This document shows positions 18,304 to 30,535 of a stretch of DNA of 35,280 nucleotides, piece after piece. Each line of letters opens with the position of its first letter. The first letter of the stretch is position 1. Where the stretch lies: the NCBI GenBank assembly GCA_016866775.1, contig VGLJ01000051.1:1-35280 (forward strand), given 5' to 3'. Source of the stretch: Candidatus Rokuibacteriota bacterium (GTDB taxonomy: Bacteria; Methylomirabilota; Methylomirabilia; Rokubacteriales; CSP1-6). Made by a program: the position numbers and the translations under genes. A model generated the notes under the pieces. It had not been told where the DNA came from and ran no database searches. It saw nothing but the letters and a program-made list of their open reading frames with translations.

Positions 18304-18959
18304 GGGCGGCGCGACCACGCCGCGGCGTGAAGCCGGCTCCGCGACGGCGCAAGCGGCGCCGCCTCGGCACGATGCTGTTCCTCGTCGGCGTGCTGGGCGT
18401 GCTCGGCGCGACGTTCGCGGCGGGCGCGCTGGCCGGCCGGTTCTCGCTTCGCCCGACGGCGTCGGTCGCGAACGCGAAGACCGCCGAGCGCGCGGCGAGG
18501 CCCGCGCCGTCGCCGCAGCCGGAGCTGACGTTCTATCGCGAGCTCACGGCGCCGCTGACGCCGCCGCCTCCGCCACCGCGCCTGGCGAGCAAGCCGGCGC
18601 CCAAGCCAACGCCCGCGGCGGCGCCGGCGGAGCCCGCGGAGCAACACGTGACGGCCACGGCCCGTCAATGGTCGACAGAGGCAGCGCGCTACACGGTGCA
18701 AGTCGGTTCCTATAACGAGCGTGCGCAGGCGGATGCGCTCCGCGCGCGCCTCGCGTCCGAGGGCCACGACGCGTACGTCGCCGAGGGCGAAGCCGCGGGG
18801 GTCACGCGCTACCGCGTCCGCATCGGCACGTTCCCGACGGCGGAGGACGCGCGCCAGGCCGCCGTGCGCCTCGCCAGCGAAGCGCACGTGGCGGTCTTCA
18901 TCACTGTGGGGGGCCCGGGACGGGCCCCCCACGCCCCCCGCGCTGCAGGCGCGGAGTGA
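18300..18959 (+). CDS. SPOR-domain membrane protein
   Basis: The 219-residue protein has a basic cytoplasmic start, one membrane helix (about residues 25-46, MLFLVGVLGVLGATFAAGAL), a proline/alanine-rich periplasmic spacer (about 60-115), and a C-terminal SPOR domain (about 128-202) with YTVQVGSYNERAQADALRAR and YRVRIGTFPTAEDARQAA. SPOR domains bind denuded septal peptidoglycan; such proteins often act in cell division. The start is GTG 18300, overlapping the argS stop; GTG 18327 is an alternative. The last 17 residues (VGGPGRAPHAPRAAGAE) are encoded by a palindromic repeat, and the stop codon lies in its hairpin loop. Confidence 0.85.
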   Translation: MRAARPRRGVKPAPRRRKRRRLGTMLFLVGVLGVLGATFAAGALAGRFSLRPTASVANAKTAERAARPAPSPQPELTFYRELTAPLTPPPPPPRLASKPAPKPTPAAAPAEPAEQHVTATARQWSTEAARYTVQVGSYNERAQADALRARLASEGHDAYVAEGEAAGVTRYRVRIGTFPTAEDARQAAVRLASEAHVAVFITVGGPGRAPHAPRAAGAE

Positions 18960-18974
18960 ATCCGCGCCCTCCGC
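18906..18974 (+). repeat. Double-hairpin palindromic element, copy A
   Basis: The first hairpin is a perfect 12-bp stem (18906-18917 with 18921-18932) around GGA. A CACGCCCCCC segment (18931-18940) links to a second hairpin: GGCGCGGA (18948-18955), loop GTGAA, TCCGCGCC (18961-18968). It ends in GCCCTCCGC (18966-18974). The loop contains the TGA stop of the SPOR gene. No T-tract follows, so it does not look like a simple terminator. A second copy lies at 25197. Confidence 0.85.
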
Positions 18975-18987
18975 GAGTGCCCTGGTG

Positions 18988-19593: not shown

Positions 19594-21411
19594 ATGAACC
19601 AGGTCTACAAGAACCTCGCGCTCTGGATGGTGATCGGCTTGATCGTCATCCTGCTCTTCACGGTGTTCCAGGGCGCGCAGCAGGGCGGCCAGGAGCAGCC
19701 GAACTTCTCCGAGTTCTTGAAGGCCGTCGAGCAGGGCCGCGTCGACTCCGTCGTCATCCGCGGCAATCTCGTCACGTACACCTTGAAGGACAGCGCGTCC
19801 ACCCAGCGCACCTACATCGTCGACTACCCGGACCTGATCAAGCAGCTTCGCGACCGCGGCGTGCGCATCGCGGTGAAGCCGCCCGACTCGAACCCCTGGT
19901 ACGCGACCTTCCTGCAGTGGGTCCCGATGCTCCTCTTCATCGGCGTGTGGATCTTCTTCATGCGCCAGATGCAGGGCGGCGGCGCGAAGGCGTTGAGTTT
20001 CGGAAAAGCGAGAGCCCGGCTGATTTCTGAAAAGCAGAACAAGATCACGTTCCAGGACGTGGCCGGGGTGGACGAAGCGAAGGAAGAGCTCAGGGAGATC
20101 ATCGACTTCCTGAAGGACCCGCAGAAGTTCCAGAAGCTCGGCGGCAAGATCCCGAAGGGGGTGCTGCTCGTCGGGCCTCCAGGCACCGGCAAGACGCTGC
20201 TCGCGAAGGCGATCGCCGGCGAGGCGAACGTGCCGTTCTTCTCGATCTCCGGCTCGGACTTCGTCGAGATGTTCGTGGGCGTCGGCGCCTCGCGCGTGCG
20301 CGATCTCTTCGAGCAGGGGAAGAAGAACGCGCCGTGCATCATCTTCATGGACGAGATCGACGCCGTCGGGCGCCATCGCGGCGCCGGCCTGGGCGGCGGC
20401 CACGACGAGCGCGAGCAGACGCTCAACCAGCTCCTCGTCGAGATGGACGGCTTCGAGACCAACGAAGGCGTGATCCTGATCGCCGCCACCAACCGTCCCG
20501 ACGTGCTCGACCCCGCGCTCCTCCGGCCCGGCCGTTTCGACCGCCAGGTCGTCGTCCCGCGCCCGGACGTGAAGGGCCGCGAAGAGATCCTCCGCGTGCA
20601 CGCGCGCCGGATCCCGCTCGCGCCGAACGTCGAGCTGAAGGTGCTCGCGCGCGGCACGCCGGGCTTCTCGGGCGCGGACCTCGCCAACCTCGTGAACGAG
20701 GCGGCGCTGCTCGCGGCGCGGCAAAACAAGAAGCTCGTGGAGATGCTGGACTTCGAGAACGCCAAGGACAAGGTCCTGATGGGCGTCGAGCGGCGCTCCA
20801 TGATCATCTCGGACACCGAGAAGCGCACGATCGCCTACCACGAGGCCGGCCACGCGCTCGTCGCGGACTTCCTGCCCGGCGCCGACCCGCTCCACAAGGT
20901 GACGATCATCCCGCGCGGCCGCGCGCTCGGCCTCACGATGCAGCTGCCGATGGACGACAAGTACAACTACTCGAAGGAGTACCTCGTCAACCGGATCACC
21001 ATCCTCCTGGGCGGGCGCGCCGCCGAGGAGATCGTGCTGCAGCAGCAGACGACCGGCGCCGGCGACGACCTCGAGAAGGCGACCGAGATGGCGCGCAAGA
21101 TGGTCTGCGAGTGGGGCATGTCCGACAAGCTCGGCCCGCTGACCTTCGGCAAGAACGAGGAGCACATCTTCCTCGGCCGCGAGGTGACCCGCCAGAAGGA
21201 CTACAGCGAGGACACCGCGCTGCTGATCGACTCCGAGATCAAGCGCATCGTCATCGACTGCGCCAGCCGCGCGCGCCAGATCCTGATGGACAACATCGAG
21301 AAGCTCCACGCGCTCGCCCGGGCGCTGCTCGAGCGCGAGTCGCTGGACAGCGAAGAGATCGCCAGGATCCTTCGCACCCGTCCGTTCTCAGAAGCCCCCG
21401 CGCCGGCCTAG
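19594..21411 (+). CDS. ftsH: Membrane-bound ATP-dependent zinc protease FtsH
   Basis: The 605-residue AAA protease degrades membrane and short-lived cytosolic proteins. It has two membrane helices (about 9-25 and 108-123) flanking a periplasmic domain, Walker A GPPGTGKT (194-201), Walker [10 protein letters not shown] (248-256), the second region of homology ([20 protein letters not shown]), and the zinc motif HEAGH (416-420). The length is slightly short only in the C-terminal tail. The gene opens the conserved ftsH-folP-cdaA-cdaR-glmM block. Confidence 0.98.
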
Positions 21412-21451
21412 ATCGCCGCTCCGCCGGGCCGGCGGCGGTGTACCTTTAGAC

Positions 21452-22324
21452 ATGTCCGCGCGGTCTGAGGCGTTCCTCGGTCTCGTGCGCGTCGGCGGCG
21501 ACGCCTCGGTCGTCGTCATGGGTGCGCTCAACGTCAGTCCCGAGTCGTTCTACGGCGGCTCCGTGCATCGCGATCGCGACGCGCTCGTCCGCGCGGGCGC
21601 GGCGATGGCGAAGTCGGGGGCCGCGCTGCTGGACGTCGGCGCGCGCTCGAGCGCGCCGTACCTCGAAACGGCGATCGGCGATACCGAGGAGGCCGAGCGG
21701 CTCGCGACCGCGGTGCACGCGCTCGTGACGAAGGTCGGGCTGCCCGTGTCCGCGGACACCGCGCGCGGACCGGCGGCGCGCGCCGCGCTCGACGCGGGCG
21801 CGACCGTCATCAACGACGTGACCGCGCTGGCGGACGAGGAGGTCGCGCGCGTGATCGCCGAGCGCGGGGTGTCGGCGATCCTCATGGCGTCACCCGCGGC
21901 TGCGGGCGGCGCGCCGGGCGACACCGCGCCCCTGGCCACGGTGCTCGGGATCCTCAGCGCCGCGATCGGACGCGCCCGCGCGGCCGGCGTGCCGGAGAGC
22001 CGTGTCGTGCTCGATCCCGGCATCGGGTTCTTCCGCGACGCGGGCGTGTCGTGGGACGTCTGGGACGCGACGCTCCTCGCCCGTCTCGACGGTCTCGCGT
22101 CGCTCGGACGGCCGCTCTGCGTGGGCGTCTCGCGCAAGTCGTTCCTCGGCGCGATCACCGGGCACGCCGATCCGGCCGCGCGGCTTGCCGCCTCGCTCGC
22201 CGCGACGGCGATCGCGGTCCTCCGGGGCGCGGCGGTGATCCGCGCGCACGACGTCGGGGAAACCGTCGACGCGGTGCGGGTGGCCGAACGGCTCACGGCC
22301 GCACGGCACGAGAGAACGCCATGA
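21452..22324 (+). CDS. folP: Divergent dihydropteroate synthase
   Basis: The 290-residue protein is a pterin-binding TIM barrel in the usual folP position between ftsH and cdaA. Conserved elements are GALNVSPESF (family NVTPDSF), VSADT (SVDT), GATVINDVTAL, DPGIGF and GVSRKSFLG, plus a late VIRAHDV. Two classical motifs are altered: the GGESTRPG loop is GARSSAPY, and the MHMxG segment is MASPAAAGG. The pterin site looks kept, but the p-aminobenzoate side may differ, so a related reaction is possible. The ATG at 21452 follows a TACCTT hexamer (21441-21446) by five bases. The stop overlaps cdaA (ATGA). Confidence 0.8.
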   Translation: MSARSEAFLGLVRVGGDASVVVMGALNVSPESFYGGSVHRDRDALVRAGAAMAKSGAALLDVGARSSAPYLETAIGDTEEAERLATAVHALVTKVGLPVSADTARGPAARAALDAGATVINDVTALADEEVARVIAERGVSAILMASPAAAGGAPGDTAPLATVLGILSAAIGRARAAGVPESRVVLDPGIGFFRDAGVSWDVWDATLLARLDGLASLGRPLCVGVSRKSFLGAITGHADPAARLAASLAATAIAVLRGAAVIRAHDVGETVDAVRVAERLTAARHERTP

Positions 22325-23154
22325 AGGACGTGCTCGCGGCGTTCCGGTGGCGCGACCTCATCGACATCGCGCTGGTCGCGCTCGTCGTCTATCGCATCCT
22401 CGTCATGTTCCGGGGCACGCGCGCGGCGCAGATGCTGATCGGGCTCTCGTGCCTCGTGGCGGGCTCGCTGCTCGCGCGGCGGCTCGAGCTCTACAGCACG
22501 CAGTGGATCCTCGACAACTTCTGGTCGTTCTGGGTCATCGCGCTCGTGGTGCTCTTCCAGCCCGAGCTGCGCCGCGCGCTCGCGCGCGTGGGCGAGGGAC
22601 GCCTCGTGGCGAGCCTGCTCGGCGCGTCGCGCGCGGAGCGCGCGCACGTCATCGACGAGATCGTCGACGCGGCCGAGGCGCTCACCGCGCGGCGCATCGG
22701 CGCGCTGCTCGTGATGGAGCGCTCGGCCGGTCTGCGCCAGTACGCCGAGCTCGGCGTCGCGGTGGACGGCCTCGTCTCGGCGGACCTGCTCGTCAGCGTC
22801 TTCCTGCCGTACTCGCCGCTGCACGACGGCGCCGTGTTCGTGCAGGGCAGCCGTCTCGTCGCGGCCGGCTGTTTCCTGCCGCTCTCCCGCAATCTTCAGA
22901 TCGCGCGCTCGCTCGGCACGCGCCATCGCGCCGCGCTCGGCATCAGCGAGGAGACCGACGCGGTCGCCATCGCGGTGTCGGAGGAGACGGGCCGCGTGAC
23001 GATCGCGGTCGGCGGCCACATCGAGACCGTGCGCGATCTCAATGCGCTGCGTGACCGGCTCGGCGAGCTCGTCGGCGTGCCGGCGCCCGCGCCGGGCGGC
23101 GGCCTCGTGCGCGGCGTCCGGCGCCTCCTCTCGCGCGCCCCCGACAGCGCCTGA
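22321..23154 (+). CDS. cdaA: Membrane diadenylate cyclase (c-di-AMP synthase)
   Basis: The 277-residue enzyme makes cyclic di-AMP. Three membrane helices occupy the first 80 residues, followed by the DAC domain with the catalytic SPLHDGAVFV (DGA at 169-171) and GTRHRAALG (199-207), which bind the second ATP. It is coupled to folP upstream (ATGA overlap) and to cdaR downstream (TGATG overlap). The order cdaA-cdaR-glmM is widely conserved; GlmM often binds and inhibits CdaA, linking c-di-AMP to cell-wall precursor supply. Confidence 0.96.
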   Translation: MKDVLAAFRWRDLIDIALVALVVYRILVMFRGTRAAQMLIGLSCLVAGSLLARRLELYSTQWILDNFWSFWVIALVVLFQPELRRALARVGEGRLVASLLGASRAERAHVIDEIVDAAEALTARRIGALLVMERSAGLRQYAELGVAVDGLVSADLLVSVFLPYSPLHDGAVFVQGSRLVAAGCFLPLSRNLQIARSLGTRHRAALGISEETDAVAIAVSEETGRVTIAVGGHIETVRDLNALRDRLGELVGVPAPAPGGGLVRGVRRLLSRAPDSA

Positions 23155-23846
23155 TGCCGCGCGCGCTGACCGCGCAGTGGGAGCTGAAGCTCATCGCGGT
23201 GCTCGTCGCGTGCACGCTCTGGTTCTTCGTCGCCACGAGCGAGCAATCACAGCTCGCGCTCGCCGCGCCGGTCGAGTACGTGGGGCTGCCGCATGAGCTC
23301 GTGGTCGTCGGCGGACAGCGCGAGACGATGGACGTCGAGGTGCGCGCGGTGCGCTCGGTCGTCGCCCGCCTCGGTCCCGAGACCGTCCGCGTGCGTCTCG
23401 ACCTCGCGGGCATCGAGCCGGGCGAGTCGTTCGTGCAGGTGACGCCGACGGACGTGCAGGTTCCGCCGGGCACGACCGTGACGCGCATCACCCCGGCGCG
23501 CCTCCTCCTCACCGTGGCGCCCGCGACGACGGGCGAGATGAAGGTCGTCCCGCGGGTGCGCGGCACCCCGGCGCCCGGATTCTCCGTCCAGCGCGTCGTC
23601 GTCGACCCTTCCAGCGTGAGGATCCGCGGACCGCGGTCTACAATTGAAACGCGAGGGGAGGTTCCGACCCTCCCGATCGACGTGTCCGGCACGCGCCGGA
23701 GCGTCACCCAGAGCGTCGGGCTGATGCTGCCCGCCGCGACCTATTTGACGCGTGAAGGACCGGTCCGCGTGACCGTCGAGATAGCGGAGGATGGCATGTC
23801 GCAGCAGCAGGGCGCCCGCGGGGCAAGCCGCAAGGCGGGCCGATGA
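23154..23846 (+). CDS. cdaR: YbbR-domain regulator of CdaA
   Basis: The 230-residue protein has one N-terminal membrane helix (LKLIAVLVACTLWFFVA, about 12-28) and extracytoplasmic YbbR-type beta repeats, recognisable by PVEYVGLPHELVVVG, VRVRLDLAGIEPGE and VVVDPSSVRIRGPRSTIE. CdaR modulates the activity of the diadenylate cyclase encoded just upstream. It is shorter than Firmicutes CdaR, with about two repeats rather than four. The ATG at 23154 overlaps the cdaA stop by one base; its own stop overlaps the glmM ATG. Confidence 0.88.
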   Translation: MPRALTAQWELKLIAVLVACTLWFFVATSEQSQLALAAPVEYVGLPHELVVVGGQRETMDVEVRAVRSVVARLGPETVRVRLDLAGIEPGESFVQVTPTDVQVPPGTTVTRITPARLLLTVAPATTGEMKVVPRVRGTPAPGFSVQRVVVDPSSVRIRGPRSTIETRGEVPTLPIDVSGTRRSVTQSVGLMLPAATYLTREGPVRVTVEIAEDGMSQQQGARGASRKAGR

Positions 23847-25195
23847 GCACGTTGTTCGGCACCGACGGCATCCGCGGGGTCGCGAACGTGGAGCCGCTGA
23901 CACCCGAGCTGGCGTTCAGAGTCGCGCGCCAGCTCGTCGCGACGCTCGGCGAGCACGGCACCGAGCGCGTACGGATCGTCATCGGCCGCGACACGCGGGT
24001 CTCCGGTCAGCTCCTCGAGTCGGCGATGGTCGCCGGCGTGCTGTCCGCGGGCGGCGAGTGCTACGCGGTGGGCGTACTGCCGACGCCCGGCATCGCGCTG
24101 CTCACGCGTGCGCTCGAGGCGCAGGGCGGCGTCGTCCTCTCGGCGTCGCACAACCCCTACGAAGACAACGGCATCAAGCTCTTCTCCGCGCAGGGGACGA
24201 AGTTCCCGGACGCGTGGGAAGAGGAGGTCGAGCGCAAGCTCGCGGCCGACGATGTGGCACCGCGCGCGCACGGCAAGCAGATCGGCCGCCTGCACGTCTA
24301 CGATCGCGCCGCGCAGTATTACGTCGACTACCTCTGCCGCTGCTTTCCGCTCGACCTCGCGGGGATCACGATCGCGATCGACTGCGCGCACGGCGCCACC
24401 CATCGCGTCGCGCCGAGCGTCTTCCGCCGCCTCGGCGCGCGTGTGGTCGCGCTCGGCGCGAAGCCCGACGGCATCAACATCAACGCGGGCTTCGGCGCGC
24501 TGTTCCCGCAGCAGCTCCAGGACAAGGTCCGTGCGAGCCGCGCGGAGATCGGCTTCGCGTTCGACGGCGACGGCGACCGGCTGATCTCCGTCGACCACAT
24601 GGGCGAGATCCGCGACGGCGACTACGCGCTCGCGGTCGCGGGACGGCATCTCGCGAAGACGAAGCGGCTGAAGGGCAACGTGGTCGTCACCACCGTGATG
24701 GCGAACCTCGGCCTCGACGAGGCGTTGACGGCGGCCGGGATCGGCGTCGTCAAGACGCAGGTCGGCGACCGCTACGTCCACGAGGAGATGCAGCGCCGCG
24801 GCGCGAACGTCGGCGGCGAGCAGTCGGGCCACCTCTTGTTTTTCGACCACGCGCCCGCCGGCGACGGCATCCTCTCCGCGCTGATGCTGCTCAGCGTGGT
24901 GCGCGAGTCGGGAGAATCGCTCGCGTCGCTCGCGAGCTGCATGCGGAAGTTCCCCCAGATCCTCGTCAACGTGCCGGTGCGCACCAAGCCGCCCTTCGAT
25001 TCCATCGCCGGCGTCCACGAGAAGGTGACCGCGTTCGAGCGTGAGATGAACGGCGCCGGGCGTGTGCTGATCCGGTATTCCGGCACCGAGCCCCTCGCGC
25101 GCGTCATGATCGAAGGCGCCGACGGCGACCGCATCCGCGCGATGGCGGACGAGCTCGCGGGCGTCATCCGCCGCCAGATCGGGGACGACAGTTAA
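23843..25195 (+). CDS. glmM: Phosphoglucosamine mutase
   Basis: The 450-residue enzyme converts glucosamine-6-phosphate to glucosamine-1-phosphate on the way to UDP-GlcNAc, peptidoglycan and lipopolysaccharide. FGTDGIRG opens the protein, the phosphorylated serine is S102 in SASHNP, the magnesium loop is DGDGDR (241-246), the sugar-binding loop is GGEQSGH, and the phosphate-binding loop is RYSGTEP. The length is typical. The ATG at 23843 overlaps the cdaR stop (ATGA). Palindromic element B begins two bases after its stop. Confidence 0.97.
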   Translation: MSTLFGTDGIRGVANVEPLTPELAFRVARQLVATLGEHGTERVRIVIGRDTRVSGQLLESAMVAGVLSAGGECYAVGVLPTPGIALLTRALEAQGGVVLSASHNPYEDNGIKLFSAQGTKFPDAWEEEVERKLAADDVAPRAHGKQIGRLHVYDRAAQYYVDYLCRCFPLDLAGITIAIDCAHGATHRVAPSVFRRLGARVVALGAKPDGININAGFGALFPQQLQDKVRASRAEIGFAFDGDGDRLISVDHMGEIRDGDYALAVAGRHLAKTKRLKGNVVVTTVMANLGLDEALTAAGIGVVKTQVGDRYVHEEMQRRGANVGGEQSGHLLFFDHAPAGDGILSALMLLSVVRESGESLASLASCMRKFPQILVNVPVRTKPPFDSIAGVHEKVTAFEREMNGAGRVLIRYSGTEPLARVMIEGADGDRIRAMADELAGVIRRQIGDDS

Positions 25196-25196
25196 C

Positions 25197-25263
25197 GTGG
25201 GGGGCTCCGGGCGCCCCCCCACGCCCCCCAGCTCCGGGCCCGGAATGAATCCGGGCCCTCCGC
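25197..25263 (+). repeat. Double-hairpin palindromic element, copy B
   Basis: This has the same plan as copy A: GTGGGGGG (25197-25204) pairing with CCCCCCAC, then the shared CACGCCCCCC, then a 9-bp stem GGGCCCGGA (25236-25244), loop ATGAA, TCCGGGCCC (25250-25258), ending in GCCCTCCGC (25255-25263). Relative to copy A the second stem differs by one G-C to C-G exchange that is compensated on the other arm. It fills the space between glmM and acpS; the loop supplies an in-frame ATG (25245) for acpS. Confidence 0.85.
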
Positions 25264-25265
25264 TC

Positions 25266-25682
25266 GTGCAGATTAAGGGGATCGGGATCGACCTCGTGCC
25301 CATTCCTCGCATGCGCCAGATCCTCGAGCGGTGGCAGGATCGCTTCCTCACGCGCGTGTTCACCGCCGACGAGATCGCCTACTGCCGCGCGCGCAAGGAT
25401 CCGGCGCCGCATTTCGCCGCGCGCTTCGCCGCGAAGGAAGCCGGCCTCAAGGCGCTGGGGACGGGACTTCGTCTCGGCGTCAACTGGCGTGAGCTCGAGG
25501 TGAAGCGCGAGCGCGGCGGGCCGCCGACGATGGTGCTCCGCGGCCGCTCGCGCGAGATCGCCAGGGCCCGCGGCGCCGATCGCATGCTGCTCGCGCTCAG
25601 TCACGACGGCGACTACGCGATCGCCCAGGCCATGCTGGTCGGCGACGGAGCGGCGGACGGTGCGCGGGGCGCGAGCGCTTAG
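25266..25682 (+). CDS. acpS: Holo-[acyl-carrier-protein] synthase
   Basis: The protein, about 138 residues, transfers 4'-phosphopantetheine from CoA to acyl carrier protein. The two magnesium-binding motifs are GIGIDLVPIPR (D9) and RFAAKEAGLKALG (E58). I place the start at GTG 25266, giving VQIKGIGID as in the family. An upstream in-frame ATG at 25245 lies in the loop of palindromic element B and would add MNPGPPL; a GTG at 25197 would translate the whole element. The last 23 bases overlap the lipoprotein gene. Confidence 0.9.
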   Translation: MQIKGIGIDLVPIPRMRQILERWQDRFLTRVFTADEIAYCRARKDPAPHFAARFAAKEAGLKALGTGLRLGVNWRELEVKRERGGPPTMVLRGRSREIARARGADRMLLALSHDGDYAIAQAMLVGDGAADGARGASA

Positions 25683-26268
25683 CGTGGCGTCGGTCGCGCT
25701 GGCGCTCTCCGGCTGCGCGATGCAGCGCGTGGAGGTCGAGCCGGTCGCGCCGCGGGGCGCGGTCGTCGCGCGGCCCGGGCGGCCCGGCTTCGTGATCGCC
25801 GTCTCGCACGCCACCGCGGATCCGCAAAGCCGCGACGTGGCGGCCGAGCTGGCGCGACGGACCGGCTTCGGGCTCGTCATCGCCGATGGCGGACGGATCT
25901 ACGAGCAGGGCGTGCGTGAGGCGGCGCAGGGCCCGCTCGCGTTCTACGCGGAGATCCACGGCGCGCCGCGGAGCGAGTCCGCGAGCCGGATCGAGATCGC
26001 GACCGTCGGCGGCGACGCGGCCCACGCCGGCCGCCTGCGCACGCTCTTCGAGCTGATCCGCGATGCGCACCTGCGCGGCTCCCCCGGCGCGCCGCGCGTC
26101 GACGTCCTCGTCGCTCCGGCGGATGCCCGCGACCGGCTGCTGCTCGTGCCGGGTCGTACGATCCAGGTCGCGGTGCCACGCATCGCGCGCGGCGAGGCGC
26201 GCGAGCCCTACCTCACGATCCTCGCGGACTTTCTCGCCCAGGCGGCCGCACTGCCGGTGGGACGCTGA
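25660..26268 (+). CDS. Putative lipoprotein of unknown function
   Basis: The 202-residue protein has a lipoprotein leader (ALSVASVALALSGC, lipobox LSGC with C19), so it should be anchored in a membrane facing the periplasm. The mature part is alpha/beta in appearance, with GFVIAVSHATADPQSRDVAAE, an IADGGRIYEQ segment and LLLVPGRTIQVAVPRI. The early SH...D pattern faintly recalls N-formylglutamate amidohydrolase-like enzymes, but I would not assign that function. The start GTG 25660 overlaps acpS; GTG 25684 would leave too short a leader. It is followed three bases later by nnrD. Confidence 0.75.
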   Translation: MRGARALSVASVALALSGCAMQRVEVEPVAPRGAVVARPGRPGFVIAVSHATADPQSRDVAAELARRTGFGLVIADGGRIYEQGVREAAQGPLAFYAEIHGAPRSESASRIEIATVGGDAAHAGRLRTLFELIRDAHLRGSPGAPRVDVLVAPADARDRLLLVPGRTIQVAVPRIARGEAREPYLTILADFLAQAAALPVGR

Positions 26269-26271
26269 GCC

Positions 26272-27897
26272 GTGCGTCCGGTCTTCACCGGCGACGAGAT
26301 GCGCCGGCTCGACGAGCGCGCGATCCGCGAGCTCGGCATTCCGGGCGCCACGCTCATGGAGAACGCGGGCCGTGGCGCCGCCGACGCCATCCTCGCGCGG
26401 CTCACGAGCGCGCGGCGCCCGGCGCGCGGCCGCCGCGTCGCGCTCGTGTGCGGCAAGGGCGGCAACGGCGGCGACGGATTCGTCGCCGCGCGCTGGCTCG
26501 CGCGTCAGGGCGTGCGCTGCGACGTCCTCCTCGTCGGGTCGCCGGGCGACGTGCGTGGTGATGCCGCGCAGAAGCTCGAGGCGCTGAAGCAGGCGCGACT
26601 GCGGCCGACCGTCGTCAGCGACGCCGCGCGCCTCGCACCGGTCCTGGCGCGCGCGGACCTCGTCATCGACGCGTTGCTCGGTACGGGCGCGCGCGCGGCG
26701 CCCGAAGGATCGATCGCCGAGGCCATCACCGCGATCAACGCCTCGGGCCGCCCCGTGCTCGCGCTCGACATCCCGTCGGGATTGCCGGCCGACGGCGGGC
26801 CTCCGTACGGCCCGACGGTGCGTGCGGACGCGACCGTGACGTTCGCGGGACTCAAGCGCGGCCTCGTCGTTCCGCCCGGACGCGATCTCGCGGGCCGCGT
26901 CTCGGTCGTCGACATCGGCGTCCCCGCCGGCGAGGTGGCGCGTGGGATCTCCACGTTCGTGCTCGACGCCGCCGACGTCGCGCGACACTTCCCGCGGCGC
27001 GAAGCGGCCGCGCACAAGGGAACGTACGGCCACCTCCTGGTGGTGGCCGGCTCGCTCGGCAAGACCGGCGCCGCCGCGCTCGCCGCCGAAGGGGCGCTGC
27101 GCGCCGGCGCCGGTCTCGTCACCGTCGCGACCGCTGCGACGCAGCAGCCTGTCGTCGCCGGGCTCGTCCTCGAGGCGATGACCGCCGCGCTCGCCGAAGG
27201 CGCGCCCGGCGTCATCGGGGAGGCCGCGTGGCCCGCGCTCGCCGAGCTGGTCGCCGCGCGTGACGCGGTGGCGATCGGTCCCGGGATCGGCCTGGACGCG
27301 GGCGTCCGGGAGCTCGCGCGGCGCCTCGTGGTCGAAGCGCGCGTGCCGATGGTCGTCGACGCGGATGCGCTGACGGCGCTGAGCGGGCACCTCGACCTGC
27401 TGCGCAAGGCTGCGGCCCCGCGCTGCCTGACGCCGCATCCGGGCGAGCTCGCGCGCCTGCTCGAGAAGCAGGTACCCGACGTCGAGCGCGCGCGGATCGA
27501 GGTCGCGCGCGAGTTCGCGACCACGCATCGCGTGCACCTCGTCCTCAAGGGCGCCGTGAGCGTCGTCGCCGCGCCCGACGGCACGGCCTTCCTGAATCCG
27601 ACCGGCAATCCGGGCATGGCGTCCGGCGGCACGGGCGACGTGCTCACCGGCATCGCGGGCGCGTTCCTCGCGCGCGGGCTCGCGCCGGGCGACGCGCTCG
27701 CCTCCGCGGTCTACCTGCACGGCCTCGCGGGCGACGTCGCCGCGGAGCGCGTCGGCGAGGAGTCGCTGATCGCGCGCGACGTGATCGCCGCGCTCCCCGA
27801 AGCCTTCGGCCGCATCGAGCGAAGCGAGGCACCGAGCGGGCGGGCGACTGCCGAGCGGGCGGGCGCTCGAGCGCCCGGGAGCCCGCGAGTTCAATGA
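26272..27897 (+). CDS. nnrD: Bifunctional NAD(P)HX epimerase/dehydratase
   Basis: The 541-residue protein repairs hydrated NADH and NADPH. The N-terminal YjeF_N epimerase domain has LMENAGRGAADAI and CGKGGNGGDGFVAARW (60-75); the C-terminal YjeF_C dehydratase domain has HKGTYGHLLVVAGS, VVDADAL, LTPHPGEL, and NPTGNPGMASGGTGDVLTGI (about 442-461), the ADP-binding signature. The domain order is as in E. coli NnrD (YjeF). The last 25 or so residues are low-complexity and encoded by direct repeats and a palindrome (27832-27877). The start is GTG 26272; the stop overlaps the tsaE ATG. Confidence 0.95.
   Translation: MRPVFTGDEMRRLDERAIRELGIPGATLMENAGRGAADAILARLTSARRPARGRRVALVCGKGGNGGDGFVAARWLARQGVRCDVLLVGSPGDVRGDAAQKLEALKQARLRPTVVSDAARLAPVLARADLVIDALLGTGARAAPEGSIAEAITAINASGRPVLALDIPSGLPADGGPPYGPTVRADATVTFAGLKRGLVVPPGRDLAGRVSVVDIGVPAGEVARGISTFVLDAADVARHFPRREAAAHKGTYGHLLVVAGSLGKTGAAALAAEGALRAGAGLVTVATAATQQPVVAGLVLEAMTAALAEGAPGVIGEAAWPALAELVAARDAVAIGPGIGLDAGVRELARRLVVEARVPMVVDADALTALSGHLDLLRKAAAPRCLTPHPGELARLLEKQVPDVERARIEVAREFATTHRVHLVLKGAVSVVAAPDGTAFLNPTGNPGMASGGTGDVLTGIAGAFLARGLAPGDALASAVYLHGLAGDVAAERVGEESLIARDVIAALPEAFGRIERSEAPSGRATAERAGARAPGSPRVQ
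27832..27877 (+). repeat. Direct repeat plus palindrome in the nnrD tail
   Basis: CCGAGCGGGCGGGCG is repeated exactly at 27832-27846 and 27851-27865. The second copy runs into an 18-bp perfect palindrome, CGGGCGCTCGAGCGCCCG (27860-27877). Together they encode the C-terminal low-complexity residues of NnrD (PSGRATAERAGARAPGS), outside the catalytic domains. Confidence 0.8.
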
Positions 27898-28316
27898 CCA
27901 GCGCCACGACGCACTCGCCCGAAGAGACCCAGGCGCTCGGCGCGCGGCTCGCCGAGCGGCTGAAGCCCGGCGACGTCGTCGCGCTCACCGGCGAGCTCGG
28001 CGCGGGCAAGACCTGCTTCACCCAGGGCCTCGCGCGCGGGCTCGGCGTCGCCGGCCGCGCGGTGAGCCCGACGTTCGTGCTCATCAACGAGTACCGCGGC
28101 CGGCTCCCGGTCCACCACGTCGACGCCTACCGCACCGAGAGCCTCACGGAGCTGCTCGACCTGGGCCTCGAGGAGCTCTTCTCCGGCGACGGGGTCACCA
28201 TCGTCGAGTGGGCGGACAAGCTGGTGCCGCTGCTGCCGCCGCACACGATCCACGTGCACATCGAGGGTGTCGGTGACGAGCCGCGGCATATCACTGTATC
28301 GAATGGTGGGCGTTGA
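27894..28316 (+). CDS. tsaE: tRNA threonylcarbamoyladenosine biosynthesis ATPase TsaE
   Basis: The 140-residue P-loop protein works with TsaB and TsaD to make the t6A37 modification of ANN-decoding tRNAs. Walker A is GELGAGKT (33-40), followed by FTQGLARGLG, VSPTFVLINEY, HVDAYR and VEWADKL, all conserved in TsaE. The ATG at 27894 overlaps the nnrD stop. nnrD-tsaE adjacency is common in bacteria. Confidence 0.95.
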   Translation: MTSATTHSPEETQALGARLAERLKPGDVVALTGELGAGKTCFTQGLARGLGVAGRAVSPTFVLINEYRGRLPVHHVDAYRTESLTELLDLGLEELFSGDGVTIVEWADKLVPLLPPHTIHVHIEGVGDEPRHITVSNGGR

Positions 28317-28349
28317 CGAGACGCGCTCCCGCGCCGGAGAGTGGCCCCG

Positions 28350-29021
28350 ATGCTCGAGCGATCACCGGTCGGGGAACGGCCGCGGGAGCGGCTCTACTGG
28401 AGCGGCGCCGATGCGCTCGCCGACGCCGAGCTGCTGGCCCTGCAGCTCGGCACGGGCACGCGCGGGCGCTCGGCGGTCGACGTCGCGCGTGAAGTCCTCG
28501 CCACCTACGGCTCGCTGACCGATCTCGCCGCGCGGGAGGCCGAGGAGCTCGCGCGCCTGCCCGGGATCGGGCGGGCGAAGGCGGCGCGGCTGGCGGCGAC
28601 GTTCGAGCTGTGCCGGCGGCTGCGCGCCCGCGTGCCCGCCGCGCGTGTGACGTTGTCGGGCCCGGCCGAGGTCTACGCCGCGTACGGCCCGCTGATGGAG
28701 GACCTCACGCGGGAGGTCTTCCGGATCGCCCTCCTCGACGCGCAGAACGGCCTGCTTCGCGACCGCGTCATCTCCGAAGGCACGCTGTCGGCGAGCCTCG
28801 TGCACCCGCGGGAAGTCTTCAAGCCCGCCATTCTCGAATCTGCGGCGTCGGTGATCCTGCTGCACAACCACCCGAGCGGGGACCCGACGCCGAGCCGGGA
28901 AGACGTGCGCCTGACACGGCAGCTCGTGGAGTGCGCGCGGCTGCTCGATCTGCGGATCCACGACCACGTGATCGTGGGGCGCGGCACCTACGTGTCGCTC
29001 GCGGAGAAGGGGCTGATCTAG
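28350..29021 (+). CDS. radC: RadC family protein (JAMM/MPN+ domain)
   Basis: The 223-residue protein has an N-terminal helix-hairpin-helix-like region (LPGIGRAKAARLAA) and a C-terminal JAMM metalloprotease-like domain with E143 (VISEGTLSAS) and the metal motif LHNHPSGDPTPSREDV (H172, H174, D185). RadC was once linked to DNA repair; its true role is uncertain. A GGAGA site (28336-28340) nine bases before ATG 28350 supports that start over GTG 28341. It converges on the small gene at 29025. Confidence 0.92.
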   Translation: MLERSPVGERPRERLYWSGADALADAELLALQLGTGTRGRSAVDVAREVLATYGSLTDLAAREAEELARLPGIGRAKAARLAATFELCRRLRARVPAARVTLSGPAEVYAAYGPLMEDLTREVFRIALLDAQNGLLRDRVISEGTLSASLVHPREVFKPAILESAASVILLHNHPSGDPTPSREDVRLTRQLVECARLLDLRIHDHVIVGRGTYVSLAEKGLI

Positions 29022-29024
29022 CGG

Positions 29025-29267
29025 TCAGCCCTTCGCGAGCTTCTCGATGTCCTTCTTCGAGAGCGTCTGGAGCCGGGCGAGGAGGCTCTTCACCTTGCGC
29101 TCCGAGGCATGGTCCGCGAGGATCAGCTTCTTCGATCGCGTGCCGTTCGCGATGTACGCGACCCAGTCGTCGAGGTTGGGCGTGCCGCGCCAGGCGACCG
29201 TCACACCGCTAACCCGCATCTTGCGCCGTCCTTCGACCTTCGCAAGGGGTTTCCGGCTTCCCTCCAT
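29025..29267 (-). CDS. Small basic protein of unknown function
   Basis: This 80-residue protein is rich in lysine and arginine, with a central TVAWRGTPNLDDWVAYIANG segment and a helical C-terminus (KVKSLLARLQTLSKKDIEKL). I do not recognise the family. The start is ATG 29265-29267 behind a purine-rich site (GGGAGGAACGAGG on the minus strand), which makes translation credible. It ends three bases from the radC stop in convergent orientation. Its upstream side faces the intergenic region with DnaA-box-like sites. Confidence 0.6.
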   Translation of the reverse strand: MEGSRKPLAKVEGRRKMRVSGVTVAWRGTPNLDDWVAYIANGTRSKKLILADHASERKVKSLLARLQTLSKKDIEKLAKG

Positions 29268-29412
29268 CGTCCTCGTTCCTCCCGCGAGCCGGTCGATCAA
29301 GTGTGCCCGCCAAACTTACGAGCGCCGCGTCCCTCGGTCAAGATTTCGTTTCCCCGCATGAACAGCGCGCGCGCGGCCCATGACACAGCGCGAAGGCGCA
29401 CGGAATGGAGAT

Positions 29413-29444
29413 TTTCTTCCCGTGGGGGACGGTTGGGGAAGAAA
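29413..29444. repeat. Inverted repeat in the intergenic region
   Basis: TTTCTTCCC (29413-29421) and GGGAAGAAA (29436-29444) form a 9-bp stem around a 14-base loop in an AT-richer patch. The function is unknown. The whole gap 29268-29545 contains no convincing gene. Confidence 0.5.
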
Positions 29445-29506
29445 CGACGTGGCGTTTTGGCGTCGCCCGCGTGCGGACCGCGCCAAATGCGGGGATTTTC
29501 GCGAAA

Positions 29507-29544
29507 TGTGGATAACAGTGGACATGTGGAAAAGCTGTGGGCAG
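29507..29544. other. Cluster of DnaA-box-like sites
   Basis: TGTGGATAA at 29507-29515 is the exact reverse complement of the consensus DnaA box TTATCCACA. TGTGGAAAA at 29525-29533 is the one-mismatch form TTTTCCACA. Two weaker relatives, AGTGGACAT (29517-29525) and TGTGGGCAG (29536-29544), give four same-oriented GTGG cores spaced 10, 8 and 11 bases, close to one helical turn. The surrounding bases are AT-richer than the rest of the window. It could be part of a replication origin or another DnaA-binding regulatory locus. Confidence 0.45.
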
Positions 29545-29545
29545 T

Positions 29546-30535
29546 TCAGCGGCGCCGTACCAGCTCGTCGAGGATCCGGCGCGCCAGCAGTGGTCCCCGG
29601 GTGATGAACGCGGTGAAGTAACCGACCGCCGTCGCCCCCGCGTCGAGCACGGCGCGCGCCTTGTCGGGCGCGTCGATGCCGCCGGTGGCGATCAGCGCGA
29701 GCCGATCACCGAATCGCGCGCGGGTGTTGCGCACGTTCTCGAGCGTCGCGGGAAAAATCTCGGGCCCGGAAAGCCCGCCGCTGCCTTGCGAGAGCCGGCG
29801 GTCCTCCACGCGGCGTGTGTTGCCGTAGTTCACGATGCCGACACCCGCCTCCAGCGCCGCCGGGATGACGTGACGCTCGTTCGCATCGGCGAAATCGGGC
29901 GAGATCTTGAGGATGAGCGGCCGCGGCGCGGCGGCGCGCACCGCTTCGAGCACCGCGCGGAGCTCGGCGGGCTTCTCGCTCCACGCATAGACCAGCTTCG
30001 TGTTGGGCGAGGAGATGTTGAACTCGACGAGATCGCCGTGCGGGCCGAGGCGGCGCACGAGCTCCACGCAATCATCGGGCGATTCGCCGGCGATGCTCAC
30101 GATGAGCGGCACCCGGTGCGGCAGCTTCGCCACGTCGGCGGCGAATGCGTCGAGCCCCGGGTTCTTGAAGCCGTTGCAGTTGATCAGCCCGGGACCGGCG
30201 GCGGTGCGCACGCGCACGAGATTCGGCTCCGGGTGCCCCGGTCGCGGATAACGCGTGATGCTCTTCGCCGTCACCGCGCCGAAGCCGAGGCCCATGGCCC
30301 GCCGCAGGATCGTCGTGTCGTAGTACTGCGCCGCGAGGATGAGCGGATTCGGCAGCCGCACACCGCCGAGCGTCGTGGCGAGCCGCGGATCGTCGAGGCG
30401 GAACAGCGGGAGCCGATCGAAGGGGAGCATCCGCAGCGCGGTCTGCCCGATCGCGATGGCTCGCTCTTCGGGCAGCCGGCTCAGGACACCCTCGTAGAAC
30501 ACGCGATAGACCCTGGCGAGCGTGTCCGTCGTCAT
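29546..30535 (-). CDS. pyrD: Dihydroorotate dehydrogenase (quinone), class 2
   Basis: The 329-residue flavoenzyme oxidises dihydroorotate to orotate in pyrimidine synthesis, passing electrons to membrane quinone. The N-terminal helices (VYRVFYEGVLSRLPEERAI) are the membrane-associating extension of class 2 enzymes. Core motifs are AKSITRYPRPGHPEPN, NCNGFKNPG, VEFNISSPNT (with the class 2 catalytic serine), LKISPD, and IATGGIDAPDKA followed by GATAVGYFTAF for FMN phosphate. I chose the ATG at 30533-30535; the open frame upstream overlaps the divergent gene and is not coding. Confidence 0.93.
   Translation of the reverse strand: MTTDTLARVYRVFYEGVLSRLPEERAIAIGQTALRMLPFDRLPLFRLDDPRLATTLGGVRLPNPLILAAQYYDTTILRRAMGLGFGAVTAKSITRYPRPGHPEPNLVRVRTAAGPGLINCNGFKNPGLDAFAADVAKLPHRVPLIVSIAGESPDDCVELVRRLGPHGDLVEFNISSPNTKLVYAWSEKPAELRAVLEAVRAAAPRPLILKISPDFADANERHVIPAALEAGVGIVNYGNTRRVEDRRLSQGSGGLSGPEIFPATLENVRNTRARFGDRLALIATGGIDAPDKARAVLDAGATAVGYFTAFITRGPLLARRILDELVRRR

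Follow-up and report, generated by a model that had tools for sequence, protein, structure and literature searches.

The spacer between glmM and acpS in a Candidatus Rokuibacteriota genome is filled by a double hairpin, element B, which resembles a second stretch further upstream, copy A. Both lie in the 35,280 nucleotides of contig VGLJ01000051.1 analysed here (the window, by which we mean this whole stretch). The original prediction had seen in these two copies a recurrent intercistronic element whose loops can donate start or stop codons, whose arms are either selected as a hairpin or copied together, and which would be a new class of regulatory repeat. The locus thus raises the questions of what element B is, what keeps it palindromic, and whether it supplies acpS with its start codon. 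The relevant features are as follows.

23843..25195, + strand: glmM, with its own TAA (25193-25195) immediately 5' of element B and a C-terminus placed approximately as in its relatives.
25195-25275, + strand: element B, occupying the glmM-acpS spacer (covariance model R1, 89.2 bits, E 1.7e-13; R2, 61.7 bits).
25197..25222, + strand: hairpin 1 of B, a G-run paired with the first C-run, the second C-run being an alternative partner.
25224..25229, + strand: second C-run of B, conserved family-wide (alignments A1 and A2).
25236..25258, + strand: hairpin 2 of B, GGGCCCGGA-ATGAA-TCCGGGCCC.
25266..25682, + strand: acpS, with a GTG start and the V/M-x-[VI]-x-GIG pattern of its relatives.
18904..18986, + strand: copy A, of element B's family (R1, 70.7 bits, E 2e-10).

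Direct reading of element B places GTGGGGGG at 25197-25204, CACGCCCCCC at 25220-25229, the hairpin 2 arms GGGCCCGGA and TCCGGGCCC at 25236-25244 and 25250-25258 around the loop ATGAA (25245-25249), and the terminal part GCCCTCCGC at 25255-25263. The sequence from 25197 to 25263 is as it had been described, a second copy of the element seen at A. In copy A the loop is GTGAA (18956-18960) and the arms are AGGCGCGGA/TCCGCGCCC. The predicted compensatory change in the second stem is present, a single C-G pair in one copy being flipped to G-C in the other with both arms altered; in addition, the outermost pair of this stem is mismatched in copy A, a point absent from the original prediction. The loop of B holds an ATG (25245-25247) in the frame of acpS and an overlapping TGA (25246-25248), and the TGA in the loop of A (18957-18959) terminates the upstream ORF 18372-18959, again as predicted. 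When up to three mismatches are allowed, TGAATCCGGGCCCTCCGC occurs twice, compared with an expectation of 0.11. No Rfam 15 family matched the region 20000-30000 of the window up to E = 1.

A covariance model built from 26 copies finds at least 148 copies in the 5.13 Mb genome, distributed over both strands and most of the large contigs, this number being a lower bound; a BLAST search of the same genome with element B returns approximately 40 loci at E < 1e-10. The prediction of further copies, and with it that of a recurrent intercistronic element, is thus borne out. GC-rich sequence readily forms hairpins, and A and B could be two such hairpins that are alike by chance; however, nearly all of the 148 matches have E-values far below chance, and the covariation described below is reached by none of 500 shuffles, so that we regard a chance resemblance as vanishingly improbable.

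The repeat unit, approximately 80 bp long, has a G-run hairpin followed by a second C-run, the CGCTC motif and then a variable hairpin, with the consensus (TGATYGAC)ATGGGGGG-[variable hairpin top]-CCCCCCAAGCCCCCCACGCTCC-GGGCCCGGA-RTGAA-TCCGGGCCC-TCCGCGAGTGCC. The feet of the hairpins are ATGGGG and CGCTC; the 5' and 3' ends of the element are dissimilar, and its boundaries are not sharp. Among copies with an RTGAA loop, 23 have arms of type GGGCCCGGA, 22 of type GGGCCGGGA and 12 of type GGGCGCGGA, and the difference between the stems of A and B corresponds to arm types that are common genome-wide and is not an isolated event. At three loci in genome G000 (C3:112064, C5:52229 and C52:20775; L082, L090 and L149) the 5' hairpin region is different or nested and contains GGACCCCAAACCCCTC or a near match, giving the impression that hairpin 1 was interrupted or replaced by a second repeat.

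Positions relative to genes were determined for 133 copies in approximately 684 kb of surrounding sequence, using ORFs called by a purpose-written codon-usage script that recovers the gene layout of the window. Between codirectional genes there are 42 copies in sense and 23 in antisense orientation, 28 copies lie between convergent genes and one between divergent genes; 37 others overlap an ORF call, many of these calls being apparently spurious or run-through, and two fall at the limits of the retrieved sequence. Of 686 gene pairs 80 are divergent, whereas only 1 of the 94 non-overlapping copies has a divergent site, a significant avoidance (p = 1e-4). Stop codons are near most copies, 103 of the 133 being at most 15 nt from a stop compared with 13% of random intergenic points, although for sense copies this is partly circular because the element itself brings a TGA with it, both at the 5' edge and in the loop. 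Antisense and convergent copies, for which the neighbouring stop is that of the host gene, mostly lie within approximately 20 nt of it, and the antisense copies near host stops and the avoidance of divergent spacers provide the cleaner positional evidence. One copy (L077:3953-4035) follows a tRNA-Leu gene at a distance of 6 nt, which makes it more likely that the positional determinant is the gene 3' end rather than the stop codon as such. The sense bias in codirectional pairs is roughly 2:1 (42:23, p = 0.025) and could reflect some RNA-level function. The adjoining genes have ordinary, mixed metabolic functions, and the 25 families listed include no transposase near the copies and show no host-gene coherence. 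Approximately ten copies are seemingly deep in ORF calls and far from any predicted stop (G000 C11:10959, C15:30012, C32:8508, C57:17855, C72:18913 and others); these may be within-gene insertions or false ORFs.

The proposal that the element donates start and stop codons holds for the stops: in approximately 22 of 70 sense copies the loop TGA terminates the upstream ORF call, and the 5' edge of the element has two further fixed positions where TGA recurs. It fails for the starts. ATG 25245 shares the frame of acpS, and the frame of B is open from GTG 25197 into acpS, but AcpS homologues have only a few residues ahead of GIGVDL, and the equivalent start here is GTG 25266, just 3' of the element; judged by these homologues, the predicted AcpS start is GTG 25266, and the loop ATG is coincidental. 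Such codons in the element explain spurious N- and C-terminal extensions, for example an AcpS annotated from the loop ATG.

In the majority of relatives, the start codon of acpS and the stop codon of glmM overlap (GTGA or ATGA). A MIRU-like element, inserting at start/stop overlaps and keeping downstream translation coupled through an ORF of its own, would suit this ancestral junction, the open frame from GTG 25197 into acpS, and the tandem copies described below, which MIRUs have as well. However, among the 34 sense copies having a downstream codirectional gene, the frame of an ATG, GTG or TTG at the 5' end of the element runs into that gene in 12, exactly the one third that chance provides; moreover, many copies are antisense or between convergent genes and one follows a tRNA gene. 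Frame coupling of the MIRU kind was rejected on this chance frequency, and a MIRU-like element is a very improbable explanation. Element B probably replaced an ancestral junction of this overlapping kind. Because B puts 70 bp between the two codons, any effect that it may have in the window would be on the coupling of acpS to glmM.

By its GlmM, the window belongs with Candidatus Rokubacteria, the closest named relatives showing 70-78% identity. A second covariance model, for which the window's own genome, a pair of relatives and a pair of named loci supplied the sequences, was run on 57 genomes of the family and detected diverged homologues of the element in 46 of them, with up to at least 79 copies per genome; in a sample of the phylum outside the family, one of 38 genomes has a borderline match (E 6e-4). 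The versions are genus-specific and retain a constant order of hairpin 1, second C-run, CGCTC, hairpin 2, and TCGA or similar. A search of viral contigs for the hairpin 2 core gave no match. The literature on Rokubacteria and Methylomirabilota repeats, searched mostly outside subscription papers, yielded no matching description.

Congeners differ by gains and losses of copies. Between glmM and acpS, the window genome has the element in sense orientation, L181 and L182 have it in antisense orientation, L183 has what is probably a remnant, and seven other junctions are without it (L174, L175, L176, L178, L180, L184 and L201). Three orthologous junctions in G017, G044 and G045 differ in presence, orientation or tandem number, and several more such differences occur among G009, G060, G061 and G010 of the neighbouring genus. 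Tandem copies are arranged head-to-tail in L176 (83 bp units), G010 (102 bp) and L260 (four copies). These comparisons also brought up other repeated sequences. A different GC-rich dispersed repeat, GAGGCGGGCTTCGCCCCCCATCCCC..., at L246:14526-14632 (G009) has matches elsewhere in G060; approximately 70 bp (GTGCGAGCCGACGGCGGCCGCGGAGCGGGAGG...) are duplicated between two genes in L269, reversed, at ~1229-1390 (G010), where relatives have a short spacer; and in L266, reversed, at ~1500-1600 (G045), repeated GCGCCGTTGAGCGGA units are inserted in sequence that is uninterrupted in G017.

The covariation predicted from two copies is real when more are aligned. Across 126 copies, both-sided changes in the two stems number 175 cells compared with 33 in shuffles, double changes occur at all nine pairs of stem 2, slid controls are all far below the observed covariation, and both stems covary in the family-wide alignment as well. 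This tells us that pairing is maintained, and not whether it is maintained in DNA or in RNA. RNA would tolerate G.T mismatches; the mismatches in stem 2 are G.T in seven cells and A.C in nine, with no excess of G.T among what are only 16 cells. G.T pairing has been cited as support for an RNA function of REPs (PMC3733652). The apical loops of hairpin 1 include exact inversions between copies (TGCGAGACGCA/TGCGTCTCGCA, CCGCCTCCAGCGG/CCGCTGGAGGCGG and CCGCCAGAGGCGG/CCGCCTCTGGCGG), and at C15:57072 the outer stem has been converted to a perfect palindrome with arms CGCTCC...GGAGCG. When a polymerase switches template from one arm of an inverted repeat to the other, homogenised arms and inverted spacers are reported to result (PMC8604942). 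Taken as a sequence pattern, the lack of G.T bias, the loop inversions and the arm-copied palindrome point to arm homogenisation at the DNA level, presumably by hairpin template switching, and joint copying of the arms, the alternative named in the original prediction, accounts for the data no less well than selection on the hairpin does. Since arm copying yields an equal pattern, compensatory changes in repeat hairpins need not mean a selected RNA, and covarying repeat hairpins are not by themselves proof of a selected RNA structure.

A functional RNA 3'-end double hairpin after the stop codon, serving as a terminator, mRNA stabiliser or translation attenuator, would likewise show stem covariation. 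Its folds are very stable (z -2.4 to -4.1), with DNA and RNA minimum-energy folds choosing different C-runs for hairpin 1 of B; the location within 15 nt of stops and the sense bias are consistent with such a role, as is the report that E. coli REPs at most 15 nt from a stop stall ribosomes (PMC12306157). However, G.T pairs show no excess over A.C in the 16 cells counted, a U-tract is absent, and a terminator scan found no terminator-like site at copy A or element B. There are, moreover, just ~150 copies in 5.1 Mb, 23 of the 65 in codirectional spacers are antisense, and orthologous gene ends vary in whether they have one. An RNA 3'-end function is therefore a possible explanation of the repeat, but one that we doubt.

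The other question is that of the carrier. A classical REP, mobilised by a RAYT (an IS200/IS605-type Y1 transposase), would be palindromic, extragenic, present in more than 100 copies, capable of stop-codon donation and without target-site duplication (PMC3733652), and the element has these traits; the flanks gave no convincing fixed-length target-site duplication, the best candidate occurring at 5 of 116 copies (514 tests, permuted flanks). The window's own genome, however, has no Y1 transposase domain (PF01797), and the RAYT model NF047646 matches none of the 23 genomes with at least 20 copies compared with nine of the 34 others (p = 0.008), with PF01797 found in one of 23 and 10 of 34, respectively; given related genomes and incomplete assemblies, these p-values should be read as no more than a guide. 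The GTAG tag is also missing. Y1/RAYT was rejected as the carrier on its absence from the own genome and its anti-correlation with copy number, and a classical RAYT-mobilised REP is improbable. DDE-type MITEs do not fit either, the ends being unlike and a fixed-length target-site duplication not convincing. Integron attC sites, whose cores are RYYYAAC/GTTRRRY, were set aside: such cores were not seen, and the copies lie at ordinary housekeeping genes. No known mobilising enzyme was found with the repeat.

The general description of a REP, a high-copy dispersed palindrome that is mostly extragenic and downstream of genes, applies to the element. We conclude that element B is probably a copy of a REP-like double-hairpin repeat of approximately 80 bp, which has spread in Rokubacteria and accumulates at gene 3' ends. 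The term new class would overstate the case, as repeats of the REP type, including donors of stop codons, are already known (PMC3733652); what appears novel within the REP kind, from its sequence, is a double-hairpin unit with neither tag nor RAYT. Copies would settle just past stop codons, owing to tolerance of insertions at such sites or to targeting, and would bring their own stop codons; their arms would be kept complementary largely by template switching between DNA hairpin arms during replication, and the carrier dispersing them would not be a RAYT. We offer only as a speculation, and one rather unlikely to hold in full, the broader proposal of clade-wide palindromic repeats that home to gene 3' ends with no dedicated transposase, are maintained by template switching, and are perhaps even dispersed by it. 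For REPs without a dedicated transposase there is a precedent in the CGTC type (PMC3733652). The repeat is a lineage-wide family in an uncultured group, its unit structure is unlike that of catalogued REPs and it is without their enzyme, and it is a natural case in which to ask how palindromic repeats disperse and keep their palindromic form when no transposase is present.

Among known systems, intrinsic terminators are also GC-rich hairpins directly 3' of genes, but the element has no U-tract, occurs as dispersed near-identical copies, and varies at orthologous gene ends. With quasi-palindrome template switching it has in common the homogenisation of arms and the exact inversion of spacers (PMC8604942), a process described for yeast inverted repeats and here proposed for a bacterial repeat family. 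MIRUs (described in part in PMC12548453) are similarly intergenic, inserted at gene junctions and found in head-to-tail tandems; the element differs in having hairpins, in lacking coupling to the downstream frame, and in occurring also in antisense orientation and after a tRNA gene. The closer likeness in kind is to REP/BIME sequences, short palindromes often present in at least 100 copies, extragenic and mostly between codirectional or convergent genes, of which the GTAG type sometimes donates stop codons (PMC3733652); the element is likewise palindromic, high-copy, extragenic, downstream of coding regions and sometimes stop-donating. It departs from the REP/BIME picture (PMC3733652) in having no RAYT and, in the 16 cells counted, no G.T pairing bias. 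GTAG and CGTC REPs are approximately 20-40 bp with one stem and an unpaired tag at the hairpin foot, whereas the element is approximately 80 bp, has neither tag, and contains two unlike stems. REP/BIME tandems are inverted pairs, whereas those of the element run head-to-tail and, within each unit, the two hairpins are joined, unlike in REP/BIME, by a conserved C-run and CGCTC.
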